From IMG/VR virus record IMGVR_UViG_3300036399_000598, positions 1-33,757 of that record: a stretch of 33,757 nucleotides of DNA; one strand, given 5' to 3'. This document shows, in pieces, positions 13,953 through 33,757 of the stretch. The notes under the pieces were generated by a model. The model saw only the letters and a list, made by a program, of their open reading frames with translations, made no database searches and was not told the DNA's origin. This DNA comes from a virus. How positions within the stretch are numbered: position 1 is the stretch's first letter; each line of letters starts with the position of its first letter. The translations under genes and the position numbers were made by a program.

Positions 13953-14596
13953 TTCGGTGACTTTGTTTTCACAAATGATTTGGTTGGTGTGGTTGATGTC
14001 GTCAATGTAGCGCCCGATTTCAAGGCTTGCAAAATTCGGTTGAACCTTTCGTTTTCCTGGGCGCTGACCTTCAAAAATTCGCGGATATCGTCGGACGATA
14101 ATTCCGAAAATTTCATTGTGGATTCCAACGCCCTTTGGACAAAAAAATCGCGGACCATTGGGTTTTTGTTCAACTTCGCAATTCTTTTTTCTTTGAACAC
14201 CGGATTGAATTCCGTTTCATCTTCGCCGTTCAAAACATAATAACACGCGGCCAATTCAATCAATGTCGATTCTTCGCCAATGAATTCCAACCGCCATTCG
14301 ATTTCGGCCAACAAATGGAACATTTCAACGATGTTCCCGGAATTGGCGGATTTCTTCATGGCGTCAACCATTGTTTTCAATTGGTCTTTGGACATGTTCA
14401 TTTCCGCGAACCTGGTCGCCACTTCGGCGGCGATGGCTCGTTTGGATGGCATTGTCAACGGGTTGGAATATTCAAACCATTCGTCGCCATCGGAGTCGGT
14501 GAATACTTTGGTCATTGGCAATTTGGAACCGGTCACATGTTGAACGGGTTTCGATTCTGCCGGACCTGGTTGTTGTTTTCGTTTGAACCAATTCAT
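13949..14596 (-). CDS. Putative tail assembly chaperone (gpG-like)
   Basis: 215 residues, directly before the tape measure gene, the standard place for the gpG/gpGT chaperones that coat the tape measure during tail assembly. The protein is mostly helical (residues 55-195; AEVATRFAEMNMSKDQLK, DDIREFLKVSAQENERF) and ends in a low-complexity Thr/Ser/Lys tail (TTSTTPTKS), as expected when the functional extension is in another frame. Codons 150-152 (GAT TTT TTT) contain a T TTT TTT heptamer. Its start overlaps the stop of the 42-residue gene. The call rests on position, length and frame structure, not on a recognised domain. Confidence 0.65.
   Translation of the reverse strand: MNWFKRKQQPGPAESKPVQHVTGSKLPMTKVFTDSDGDEWFEYSNPLTMPSKRAIAAEVATRFAEMNMSKDQLKTMVDAMKKSANSGNIVEMFHLLAEIEWRLEFIGEESTLIELAACYYVLNGEDETEFNPVFKEKRIAKLNKNPMVRDFFVQRALESTMKFSELSSDDIREFLKVSAQENERFNRILQALKSGATLTTSTTPTKSFVKTKSPK
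14141..14147 (-). other. Candidate -1 slippery heptamer (T TTT TTT)
   Basis: In the frame of the 215-residue gene the minus strand reads GAT TTT TTT GTC, a perfect X XXY YYZ heptamer. The -1 frame is open from here to the stop at 13848. The protein encoded just after the slip (CPKGVGIHNEIFG) looks less natural than that nearer the end, so the true slip point could lie further downstream and be non-canonical. Confidence 0.35.
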
Positions 14597-20348: not shown

Positions 20349-21008
20349 TTAAAAAAGTATTAATTGGCTTTTGTATTGCTTAAATCGTTTTTCCTGAGCC
20401 TCGAAATAATCGCGGTCGAGTTCACACGCGTAAAAATCAAAACCCATTTTGTCGGCGGCGATACGCGATGAACCCGAACCCAAATGTGTATCCAAAATTT
20501 TGTCGCCCTCATTCGCGTAATTTTTCAAAAGCCATTTGTATAACTCAATCGGTTTTTGAGTTGGATGAATATTTATTCCAGCCCTTTCAGTTCCTTTCAA
20601 TTTTGGCGCAAATCCGCTTTCGTTTGCTCTTGCATAACGAAAAATTTTCATTTTTGTGTTTGTGCTCACCCATGCCATTTCACCGTCGGACATTTTAAAA
20701 TTGGGTTGCATTTTGTCCCAAATTATCCAACTCATTTTCGGTGTTAAATAATTACAGAAATAATTACCGCCCCAAATAATTTGGTTTTTTGATACTCTAA
20801 AAAGTTCCAAAAAATATGTTTCATTTGGTGGTTCATTGTCCCATGATTTGAATTCACGCAATATCCATCCATGACCTTCAAAATGTTGCCTGTCTGCATT
20901 GATGCCATATGGAGGGTCAACAATTGCCAAATCAAAATATTTGTCCGGATATTTTTTCATGAAATCCATACAATCGGCATTTTCAACCAATGAAATTTTA
21001 TTATTCAT
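20349..21008 (-). CDS. Orphan DNA adenine/cytosine-N4 methyltransferase (class beta)
   Basis: 219 residues. Catalytic DPPY is at 31-34, HPTQKP at 148-153 and the SAM-binding DTHLGSGSS at 173-181; the order (catalytic motif first, SAM motif last) is that of class beta. It methylates an exocyclic amino group in DNA. No cognate restriction endonuclease gene is adjacent, so it probably protects phage DNA from host restriction or marks it for regulation. The gene is notably AT-rich (about 27-32% GC in three 60-bp blocks, against about 45% in the SSB gene), which suggests recent acquisition. The target site cannot be read from the sequence; the genome lacks GATC, so a Dam-type target seems unlikely. 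Confidence 0.9.
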   Translation of the reverse strand: MNNKISLVENADCMDFMKKYPDKYFDLAIVDPPYGINADRQHFEGHGWILREFKSWDNEPPNETYFLELFRVSKNQIIWGGNYFCNYLTPKMSWIIWDKMQPNFKMSDGEMAWVSTNTKMKIFRYARANESGFAPKLKGTERAGINIHPTQKPIELYKWLLKNYANEGDKILDTHLGSGSSRIAADKMGFDFYACELDRDYFEAQEKRFKQYKSQLILF

Positions 21009-21894
21009 ATTGTTGATTTTTAATGTTTTCGACTACGGACCGAAAATCCGTGTTTTGACGTTTGAAAGTTTGAAAAAAATGGTCCATGGTCAATTCGTAA
21101 CAACGGCGCCGGGTGATGTCTGCCAACGTTTGGTTTTGCCTAAATGCCAATTCACCCATTTCGAGCGATTCGCGCAATGAACGGACAACCTTTGCCCGTT
21201 CGCGCGATTCCGGTTTTTCATTTTCAATTTGCGCGGCAATTTGGCCTTTGGCAACCTCCATGATTTTGACTTTGTCGGAATTCTCCAAAACAAAACCCAA
21301 TTGTTCCATGGTCCTGAAAACGTGTTCAATACCTCCGACCGATGGCCAATGGATGGATTTCCCGGCGGCAAAATCGTCCCAACGTTTCAACAAACATTCG
21401 TCAACGAATCCCCAAAACAACATTTTTTTTTCGTCATCCGACGGGTTTGGTTTGGTTGTCATGTCCAACATTTTTTGATTGAATTCAACCAGGGCGGCGC
21501 CGCGTTTTTCACGGTATGCATTGGCGACGGTGGCAAAATAAACGGATGAAAAGTTTTGAAAATGGTTGATTTCGACGTCCAATTGTCCGGCGACTGCCAT
21601 CCGGAACGCCAATTTCATTTCTTCGGGCGTCATCCAACCGAATTCGGATTGAATAAATTCCACTAAAACCATTTTTTGCAATTCTGACGGCAAATTTTCG
21701 CTTTTCAGACCAACCAACGTGAAAATGTACCTCAAAGACATTTTGATTGATTCTTGGTCCGTCAAATTGCGAATTTGGGTGTCTTTTGATGCTTCGACAA
21801 TTTCGCGGCCTCTAAAACTTCGAAATTGCATCGTCGAAATTGGGTTTCGGATTTCGATTTCCGATTGATTGATTTTTTGGATTGTTGTTGTCAT
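21001..21894 (-). CDS. 297-residue replication-module protein of unknown function
   Basis: Mostly helical; motifs LRYIFTLVGLKSENLPSELQ, TPEEMKLAFRMAVAGQLD and FSSVYFATVANAYREKR. It directly follows the replication initiator-like gene, the position of helicase loaders or initiator partners in many phages, but no ATP-binding motif is present, so a DnaC-type loader is not supported. The ATG at 21894 overlaps the initiator gene by 83 nt; the ATG at 21831 (MQFRSFRG) would reduce this to 20 nt. The first codons ATG ACA ACA ACA echo the AAC-rich context of other early starts. Confidence 0.65.
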   Translation of the reverse strand: MTTTIQKINQSEIEIRNPISTMQFRSFRGREIVEASKDTQIRNLTDQESIKMSLRYIFTLVGLKSENLPSELQKMVLVEFIQSEFGWMTPEEMKLAFRMAVAGQLDVEINHFQNFSSVYFATVANAYREKRGAALVEFNQKMLDMTTKPNPSDDEKKMLFWGFVDECLLKRWDDFAAGKSIHWPSVGGIEHVFRTMEQLGFVLENSDKVKIMEVAKGQIAAQIENEKPESRERAKVVRSLRESLEMGELAFRQNQTLADITRRRCYELTMDHFFQTFKRQNTDFRSVVENIKNQQYE

Positions 21895-22627
21895 TTCGTT
21901 TGCGGACTTTCATCCAATTTTTGATTGTGAGAAAAGTTGATTTGTATTTGGTCGCAATGGTCGGAACATTTTCCATCGCCTCCAAAATTTCGGTGATTTC
22001 AATTTTTGAAAATTCGGTCAACAATTGTTCGGCCTGGTCATCGGTCAACGGCAATTTCATTTTCGATACTGCCGGAAAACTTTTTTGAATTTCCAAAACG
22101 ATTGGGTGTGTAGATACACACTCAAAAGAGTGTGTATTTATATTTGAAGATGAAGAAGAAGAAGAAGAGGTTGGAAAAAGGTTTTCGGGGGTGTTAACCT
22201 TTGGGTTAACCTTTGGGTTTTCCTTTTTTTTCAATTTCGGATTTCCGCCCAATTTGCCAATCTCGCGCCATTGTTGGCGTGTACGTTCATCATTGACCAT
22301 TCGTTTTGAAAAATATCGTCCATTTTCGTCCCTCTGAATGATTCCAAATGTGGTGAGTTCAATGAACACTTTTTGGAACGTTTTTGGATTCATTTTGGAC
22401 AACTTTTGGATTCCATTTGCATCCAAAACGACGTCGCCAAAAACCAAAAATCCTGGTTCATCGGACAAATACATGTGGCAAAGAATGTCCATCCAAACGC
22501 CTTTTGTCGCCGGTGAACAAAGATTCAATTTCGGGTCGGTCAACCAATCACCCGGATAAAATTGGAACGATGGCGACCGGTCACGGCCATTTGATTTTGG
22601 TTTGTTGTTGTTTGTCATGTGGTTCAA
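21812..22627 (-). CDS. Replication initiator/replisome organiser-like protein
   Basis: 271 residues. N-terminal winged-helix-like domain about 20-120: FQFYPGDWLTDPKLNLCSP, GVWMDILCHMYL, TTFGIIQRDENGRYFSKRM, then RTRQQWREIGKLGGNPK. This arrangement is seen in phage replication proteins of the DUF1376/DnaD-like group. A low-complexity middle follows (PKVNPKVN, then eight serines), and a helical C-terminal domain (LTEFSKIEITEILEAMENVP) that may load the helicase. No polymerase or helicase gene is visible, so host machinery is presumably recruited. The gene contains an inverted repeat and tandem repeats that could be the origin. The start may be the ATG at 22618 (MTNNNK). Confidence 0.7.
   Translation of the reverse strand: MNHMTNNNKPKSNGRDRSPSFQFYPGDWLTDPKLNLCSPATKGVWMDILCHMYLSDEPGFLVFGDVVLDANGIQKLSKMNPKTFQKVFIELTTFGIIQRDENGRYFSKRMVNDERTRQQWREIGKLGGNPKLKKKENPKVNPKVNTPENLFPTSSSSSSSSNINTHSFECVSTHPIVLEIQKSFPAVSKMKLPLTDDQAEQLLTEFSKIEITEILEAMENVPTIATKYKSTFLTIKNWMKVRKRNDNNNPKNQSIGNRNPKPNFDDAISKF
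22106..22216. other. Candidate replication origin inside the initiator gene
   Basis: Positions 22114-22137 form a perfect 10-bp inverted repeat (ATACACACTC, AAAA loop, GAGTGTGTAT). GTGTGTA occurs three times in alternating orientation (22106-22112, 22115-22121, 22130-22136). An A+T/GAA-repeat tract follows (22137-22170), then two perfect tandem 12-mers GTTAACCTTTGG (22193-22216). Iterons plus an AT-rich tract inside the initiator gene is the arrangement of lambda-type origins. No T-run flanks the stem, so a terminator is unlikely. Confidence 0.4.
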
Positions 22628-23028
22628 TTTTGCAACGTATCAATCAACGCCAAAACGCGGTCATCAACTCGTTTGCGTTTTCCGGCAATTACGTTGTGGA
22701 CAAACGTCAACGAAAATTCCGGATTCTGCCGGCAAAAGTTTTGAAGCGTTCCGAACCGTGTTTTCACGGCCTTTTCAACAAACATTCGTTGGTCGGTGTC
22801 AATACACCAAATACACGGCATCAATTCCGTTTCATGAATGGTTTGTTTTGCCTGGTTCAATATCGATTGGCTCCGGGGCGTTGACATCCGTCCATTGATG
22901 GCCGACGTCATCACATGGTATTTGATTCCGGACGCCTGGCAAAAATTGCGGATTGTTTTGAATTTTCGTTTGATGGCCGTTGATACGTCCAACGGGTCCA
23001 CAAATTGGTTTTCAATCATTGTTTTCAT
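22624..23028 (-). CDS. Small protein with two similar HTH-like halves
   Basis: 134 residues. Residues about 22-63 (KFKTIRNFCQASGIKYHVM, then AINGRMSTPRSQSI) and about 90-130 (RFGTLQNFCRQNPEFSLTF, then VIAGKRKRVDDRVLALI) align with each other: FxTxxNFC, a turn, a second helix and a basic G-R/K segment. This looks like a tandem duplication of a Cro-like helix-turn-helix, giving a built-in dimer. It lies between bet and the initiator gene. A DNA-binding role in early regulation or replication is inferred. It overlaps the initiator start by 4 nt. Confidence 0.6.
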   Translation of the reverse strand: MKTMIENQFVDPLDVSTAIKRKFKTIRNFCQASGIKYHVMTSAINGRMSTPRSQSILNQAKQTIHETELMPCIWCIDTDQRMFVEKAVKTRFGTLQNFCRQNPEFSLTFVHNVIAGKRKRVDDRVLALIDTLQN

Positions 23029-23125
23029 TGCGGTTGTATTTTGATTTTCGATTTCGATGAATTACGGCGTCGATTAGGCCAATTATGCCAACCGTCACCA
23101 ATGCAAATGGAATCCATTCAATCAT
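23012..23125 (-). CDS. 37-residue single-pass membrane microprotein
   Basis: MIEWIPFALVTVGIIGLIDA is a clear membrane helix, followed by a basic, polar tail (VIHRNRKSKYNRNEN). Its start overlaps the bet stop by ATGA and its end overlaps the next start by 17 nt. It fills what would otherwise be a 93-nt gap. Unknown function. Confidence 0.6.
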   Translation of the reverse strand: MIEWIPFALVTVGIIGLIDAVIHRNRKSKYNRNENND

Positions 23126-25824: not shown

Positions 25825-25855
25825 AGCAAGAAAAAACCCGGACGTTTCCGGGTTT
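25825..25855 (-). terminator. Rho-independent terminator ending the late transcript
   Basis: On the minus strand a 9-bp stem with a 4-nt loop (arms AAACCCGGA and TCCGGGTTT in plus-strand reading, 25834-25855) runs into TTTTTT then CTTGC. It follows the last late gene (25905-26324) and precedes the early promoter, separating the end of the late operon from the start of the early one. Confidence 0.9.
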
Positions 25856-33250: not shown

Positions 33251-33757
33251 TTATTTGGATTCGTTTCCGAATACCTTCATGGTCTGCAATGAAGCGGCGT
33301 TCGCTTGGGCCTTTGCCATTCCGGCCAATTGATATTTTGGCGGTTCGGCTCCGGGCGTTGGTGGCGGTGGCGGCGTTCCATTGCCTTGTTTGGTCGGTGT
33401 TGGACTGCCGTTGGATTGTTTAATCACACCCAATGACGCCAAATGTCCGTCCAATATTTCGTCAAATGTAACGATTTTCGTTCCATCGTTGTTCAACGGG
33501 TTCAAATTATTTTTGGTTTTCACAACCAATTCGCCGTTGTCGTCCACATCCACATTGAAATTGGATTCCAAATAAGTTTGGACGGCCGGTTTGACAACCT
33601 CCGGCGATACAATCAACGAACGTTTGGCGATGGCAGATTGGATGAACGATTCGCGTTTGAATGTTTTGATGGCCTGTTTTGCCTCGTTTTCCTTTTGCGG
33701 AATGATTTCATCAACCAGGTGTTTGTTCTCGTTGGTCAATTCAATCAATCGTTTTTG
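33251..33757 (-). CDS. Capsid scaffolding protein, C-terminal part (split by the contig ends)
   Basis: This is the continuation of the gene that starts at 454; here the 5' end is open. Reading through the 127-bp overlap gives one 277-residue protein. The ATG at 33748 is internal (it equals position 118) and not the true start. The C-terminal half ends in a low-complexity Pro/Gly/Thr segment (NGTPPPPPTPGAEPP) followed by a short polar tail with KVFGNESK at the end. Such a flexible C-terminus is common in scaffolds, where a terminal helix contacts the capsid protein. The next genes downstream are a possible 44-residue protein and the major capsid protein. Confidence 0.75.
   Translation of the reverse strand, partial: QKRLIELTNENKHLVDEIIPQKENEAKQAIKTFKRESFIQSAIAKRSLIVSPEVVKPAVQTYLESNFNVDVDDNGELVVKTKNNLNPLNNDGTKIVTFDEILDGHLASLGVIKQSNGSPTPTKQGNGTPPPPPTPGAEPPKYQLAGMAKAQANAASLQTMKVFGNESK
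33631..33757. repeat. Terminal 127-bp overlap, copy 2 (circular junction)
   Basis: Exact copy of positions 1-127. Removing one copy leaves a 33,630-bp circle in which the minus-strand scaffold gene is continuous. Confidence 0.93.

Follow-up and report, generated by a model that had tools for sequence, protein, structure and literature searches.

In bacteriophage lambda, the replication origin lies in the middle of the O gene, where tandem iterons sit beside an AT-rich tract (PMC7466680). The rep gene of the lactococcal phage Tuc2009 is also recorded as containing the origin of replication. In bacteria, the DnaA-trio is a 3'-GAT-5' repeat that is bound by DnaA (PMC6669920). The locus described here lies near 22.1 kb in a viral record (IMGVR_UViG_3300036399_000598), the whole of which (33,757 nucleotides) was analyzed and is called the window below. 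The window has 127-bp direct terminal repeats (positions 1-127 and 33631-33757) and therefore probably represents an entire phage genome that is circularly permuted. A first-pass annotation had proposed a lambda-like origin inside an initiator gene at this locus. Based on conservation at the DNA level, placement within the initiator gene, and resemblance to in-gene origins already known, we conclude that this region is very probably a phage replication origin, located in the linker-coding part of the phage's own initiator gene.

The resemblance to lambda is in the mid-gene location and in the tandem iterons adjoining an AT-rich tract (PMC7466680). As in a lambda-type origin, the tandem iterons are conserved in relatives and the adjacent DNA is AT rich (66% AT at positions 22106-22175 versus 55% for the genome). 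In contrast to the 19-bp iterons of lambda, the iterons here are 12 bp long and contain GGTTAACC, and they are accompanied by a tract of hexamer repeats that is followed, in many relatives, by a hairpin with a TNNC loop. The window initiator matches replisome organizer rather than O-like PHROGs. In Tuc2009, the linker-coding part of rep likewise carries repeats, but these are an array of AGGWW pentamers (L423:3487-3545), and rep of the lactococcal phage TP901-1 has neither a hexamer tract nor a TNNC-type hairpin.

The initiator (replisome organizer) gene occupies positions 21812 to 22627 and encodes 271 amino acids, starting at TTG 22627 or ATG 22618. It is on the minus strand (22627-21812), which corrects the first-pass annotation. 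The protein matches PHROG 13246 (replisome organizer; E = 9e-12) and PHROG 9327 (primosomal protein; E = 1.5e-5). The PHROG search gave no O-like match for the window initiator; in some relatives, the C-terminal part matches PHROG 678, which is O-like. No Pfam profile, including DUF1376 (PF07120), matches it at E < 0.1. Among viral proteins, Foldseek places it next to DUF1376 proteins and phage proteins of replication initiation. Fold searches against the PDB gave weak matches to RepA-type initiator N domains (E = 0.02 to 0.06), on which we do not rely, and the matches from an alignment-based PDB sequence search were mainly low complexity. In the AF2 model (mean pLDDT, 81), an ordered, winged-helix-like N domain (about residues 20-133) is joined to a helical C domain (about residues 175-250) by a disordered linker (about residues 134-170; pLDDT < 50), and this linker falls exactly over the DNA element. 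The next gene (21001-21894, minus strand) overlaps the end of the initiator gene and belongs to phrog_26016, annotated as unknown function; its position makes it a candidate partner in helicase loading. Two further repeat pairs surround the region, a perfect 16-bp inverted pair (22407-22422 and 23101-23116) and an exact 17-bp direct repeat (21385-21401 and 22773-22789).

The repeats that the first-pass annotation had reported are all present within the gene, at 22106-22228. Read in the direction of this minus-strand gene, the order is 12-mers, CT tract, AT stretch, hairpin; in full, it is three 12-bp units, CCAACC, a run of TCT/TCA codons, AATATAAAT, and a 10-bp hairpin. The iteron array (22193-22228, minus strand) consists of three units of the form AAGGwwAACCC(A). 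Two of these are the reported tandem 12-mers, perfect GTTAACCTTTGG units at 22193-22204 and 22205-22216, and the third is degenerate (GTTTTCCTTTTT, 22217-22228). The core of the iterons contains the palindrome GGTTAACC (22204-22211), which is the sole such site in the window. A CCAACC half-site (22169-22174, minus strand) stands at the head of the tract and is enriched in relatives. The reported GAA tract (22145-22168) is, on the gene strand, a hexanucleotide pyrimidine tract, (TCWTCT)n, which translates to eight serines and which we propose as the unwinding tract; the longest homopurine run of the window is at 22152-22170. From the tract to the hairpin runs an AT-only stretch, AATATAAAT (22136-22144, minus strand), the last 2 bases of which are shared with a hairpin arm.

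The hairpin (22114-22137, minus strand) has perfect 10-bp arms and a 4-nt loop. It is the inverted repeat of the earlier annotation, which on the plus strand reads ATACACACTC-AAAA-GAGTGTGTAT, and it is one of only two perfect 10-bp inverted repeats with loops of 3 to 12 nt in the window. The hairpin is backed by its predicted DNA fold (-9.3 kcal/mol; z = -5.9), by covariation, and by hairpins at the same place in relatives. As a terminator it was rejected: it has no T-run, and a terminator call on the plus strand at 22193 is merely the 12-mers. The three alternating copies of GTGTGTA were located on the plus strand at 22106-22112 (GTGTGTA), 22115-22121 (TACACAC), and 22130-22136 (GTGTGTA). The copy at 22106-22112, TACACAC on the gene's minus strand, adjoins the hairpin, and relatives retain it as TACACACCC or TGCACACCC. 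It encodes a conserved Thr/Ala-His-Pro and is thus partly explained by the conserved His-Pro of the protein.

We assessed these repeats against chance by shuffling synonymous codons while keeping the protein. Inverted repeats of equal length occur in 4.5 to 7% of shuffled genes and direct repeats of equal length in 2.6 to 3%, so that the hairpin or the direct repeat alone proves little, and each repeat length is barely beyond chance. Codon use is decisive. Codons 154 to 173 (22168-22109) have a z score of -10.4 when compared with the usage of the phage itself and are its most aberrant stretch; the next most aberrant, among the 25 genes examined, has a z score of -5.0. TCT is used for serine 8 times within these 20 codons versus 9 times in all other genes. 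Together, the repeats, the codon use, and the conservation in relatives are far beyond chance, and it is the DNA itself, not the protein, that is under selection at this region.

The window and six related viral contigs with 78 to 95% protein identity were aligned (7 sequences). The three 12-bp units and their register are kept in these close relatives, and two of them (L002 and L014) carry an identical T-to-A change in both of the units that are perfect in the window. Over 12 pairs of the hairpin, 91.7% of pair cells are preserved; two pairs are changed on both sides (C-G to T-A), and there are no one-sided changes. The hairpin covariation score is 0.159 versus 0.078 in shuffles, and 0 of 500 shuffles score as high. 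These compensatory changes are supportive rather than conclusive because the sequences are few and related. Within the AT stretch, ATATAAATA is invariant in all 7 sequences. The earlier annotation had asked whether related phages with a different protein sequence still carry the repeats; in these sequences hairpin pairs change on both sides and the 12-mers change together, and in the more distant relatives below the tract retains its TCW codons at every GC content.

The distant set comprises 133 nonredundant relatives with GC contents of 35 to 69%; protein-based searches yielded 102 unique N domains, 92 of them with a serine tract. Serine codons within the tract are TCT (654), TCA (442), or others (44), which is 96% TCW (1,096 of 1,140), compared with 38% (791 of 2,090) outside the tract in the same genes. 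Even in genes with more than 62% GC, TCW accounts for 93% of serine codons in the tract versus 21% elsewhere. The codons most common ahead of the tract are CCA ACC CCT, and after CCAACC-CCT, even-numbered serine codons are nearly always TCT while odd-numbered ones are TCA or TCT. Only 2 TCA-TCA pairs are observed in the tract, against 146 expected. This parity recurs in the subset of relatives fetched by protein only. Selection on the protein cannot explain the (TCWTCT)n register; a 6-nt period is invisible to it, and the register thus points to selection at the DNA level. A 21-nt pattern built on the register (CCAACCCCTTCWTCWTCWTCW) is found in at least 120 viral stretches, and 105 of the 106 unique ones lie in this initiator family in the serine frame; the reversed pattern has 0 matches in viral contigs. 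The hexamer pattern alone was discarded as a specific marker since many of its matches fall in unrelated genes, where they encode acidic or serine tails. In the 133 relatives, the DNA upstream of the tract contains GGTTAACC 68 times versus 6.7 expected (tenfold) and CCAACC 140 times versus 21 expected; GGTTAACC, CCAACC, and AAGGWWAACC are all at about 7 to 10 times the synonymous-shuffle expectation. If the region is an origin, the poly-serine linker is mainly a by-product of the DNA. Some relatives carry endonuclease inserts in the linker (GIY-YIG-like T5orf172/MUG113 in L056 and L062; HNH in L299 and L351), between the N domain and the serine tract and adjoining the presumed origin.

Past the tract, within 60 to 66 nt, relatives have hairpins of unrelated sequence. 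TNNC-loop hairpins scoring at least 7 are found there in 15.8% of cases, compared with 0.2% when synonymous codons are shuffled and 0.1% in control windows taken from elsewhere in the same genes. The loops are mostly TGAC, TAAC, or TATC and are closed by C-G; a strict cTNNCg-anchored hairpin is present in only 30 of the 133 relatives. The window hairpin itself has a TTTT loop on the gene strand, and near relatives have TATC or TAAC.

Some viral DUF1376 proteins, a family found among the Foldseek neighbors of the window protein, share the TCATCT tract, and one (L290) also has a TAAC-loop hairpin; unlike them, the window protein is without a Pfam match. Other initiators have different perfect hexamers in the same place: (GACAGG)n in phi297 and its kin, (AGATAC)n in phages that share the phi297 hairpin and C part and not its N part, (GGAAAA), (GAGAAG), and similar hexamers in SOVA965-like proteins, and (GTGATA)n in Aeromonas phage 4_L372X. 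Several of these tracts are followed by TNNC-loop hairpins. Pam1 has a TAAC hairpin and no hexamer tract, and a clear tract is absent in Rac ydaU and several other named DUF1376 phages, so tract and hairpin are not universal. Among Pseudomonas phage initiators (L368-L408), N and C halves have been exchanged at the hexamer tract and hairpin, with an identical C part and hairpin joined to two different N parts and hexamers.

Several of these observations could be read without an origin. The linker might simply be a flexible, serine-rich tether whose repeats arose by replication slippage in low-complexity DNA. The linker is predicted by AF2 to be disordered, hexamer copy number ranges from 3 to 7 in the near kin of phi297, a variation that slippage would produce, and the repeat lengths alone are marginal against synonymous shuffles. 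However, neither a tether nor slippage accounts for tract serines that are 96% TCW at every GC content and in 6-nt register, nor for the compensatory changes in the hairpin, and tandem slippage produces neither a recurrent TNNC-loop hairpin nor GGTTAACC sites; we consider this explanation very unlikely. An RNA element, in which hairpin and tract would act in the mRNA as an attenuator, a translational control, or a processing signal of the initiator operon, is equally improbable. The hairpin fold is stable, and the initiator gene overlaps the next gene and is codirectional with it, yet no U-run follows the hairpin, no terminator is listed there, an Rfam search gave no match, and the iterons would be left unexplained. 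G-U pairs are absent at the 9 mismatched positions in family stems, and there is no one-sided G-U change in the 7 close sequences, which, in these small numbers, leans toward DNA over RNA.

Instead of an origin, the region could also be an operator bound by a regulator, or a recombination junction, a hot spot for the exchange of initiator modules. The Pseudomonas phages do indicate that modules join at the tract and hairpin, since N part and hexamer differ while C part and hairpin stay the same. Exchange at this boundary is nevertheless expected if the origin is a shared seam, an operator would be unusual within a coding sequence at such a distance from the start of the gene, and iterons plus tract are better fitted by an origin, so we give this reading very little credence as well. 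For the origin itself, GC skew, which had been suggested as a check, gives no support, because no extreme lies at 22.1 kb (minimum at 14425; detrended maximum at 25855). Our analysis establishes that the DNA sequence is selected and that its three-part order is conserved; selection on the DNA of an initiator gene is not, taken alone, proof of an origin.

If the region is an origin, initiation might proceed as follows. The winged-helix-like N domain would bind the 12-bp iterons with their core palindrome GGTTAACC. The initiator-iteron complex would then open the adjacent (TCWTCT)n tract and AT stretch, where the 6-nt register suggests that subunits of the initiator or of a loader contact one strand in an ordered way. 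The hairpin past the tract may mark the opened end or give it its shape, for instance as a signal for entry or priming, and the C domain, probably with a loader, would recruit the host DnaB helicase. In having a short tandem repeat beside double-strand initiator sites, with a repeat length that matters, this arrangement resembles the DnaA-trio of bacterial oriC. It differs in its 6-nt register, in its 5'-GAW-3' reading on one strand, and in having no DnaA box nearby. Given the hexamer register of (TCWTCT)n, and with the only DnaA-box match of the window at 1400, we do not assign the tract to the DnaA-trio; unit, polarity, and initiator differ, and the resemblance is offered as an analogy only. 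Across the window (1-33757), the DnaA-box-like TTWTNCACA occurs once versus 8 times expected, which perhaps reflects avoidance of the host initiator.

The overall plan is known from lambda ori in gene O, while the hexamer code and the hairpin appear to be undescribed: the open-licence literature searched yielded no description of a tract or hexamer origin, an absence that is weak evidence. More tentatively, and with rather more doubt than belief, we propose that the low-complexity linkers found in many phage initiators (poly-Ser, EKEKEK, TGTGTG, DTDTDT) may be footprints of an undescribed origin code, made up of a hexanucleotide tandem tract that is specific to the N-domain type and read in 6-nt register at unwinding, and a TNNC-loop hairpin for helicase loading or priming. 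If true, such a code would be the phage counterpart of the DnaA-trio. Apart from this proposal, the conserved element supplies a sequence signature by which the likely origin can be placed in the genomes of many uncultured phages, and it accounts for puzzling serine runs in the protein as a consequence of DNA function. It also provides a testable hexamer rule for DNA opening by phage initiators, which is a poorly understood step.
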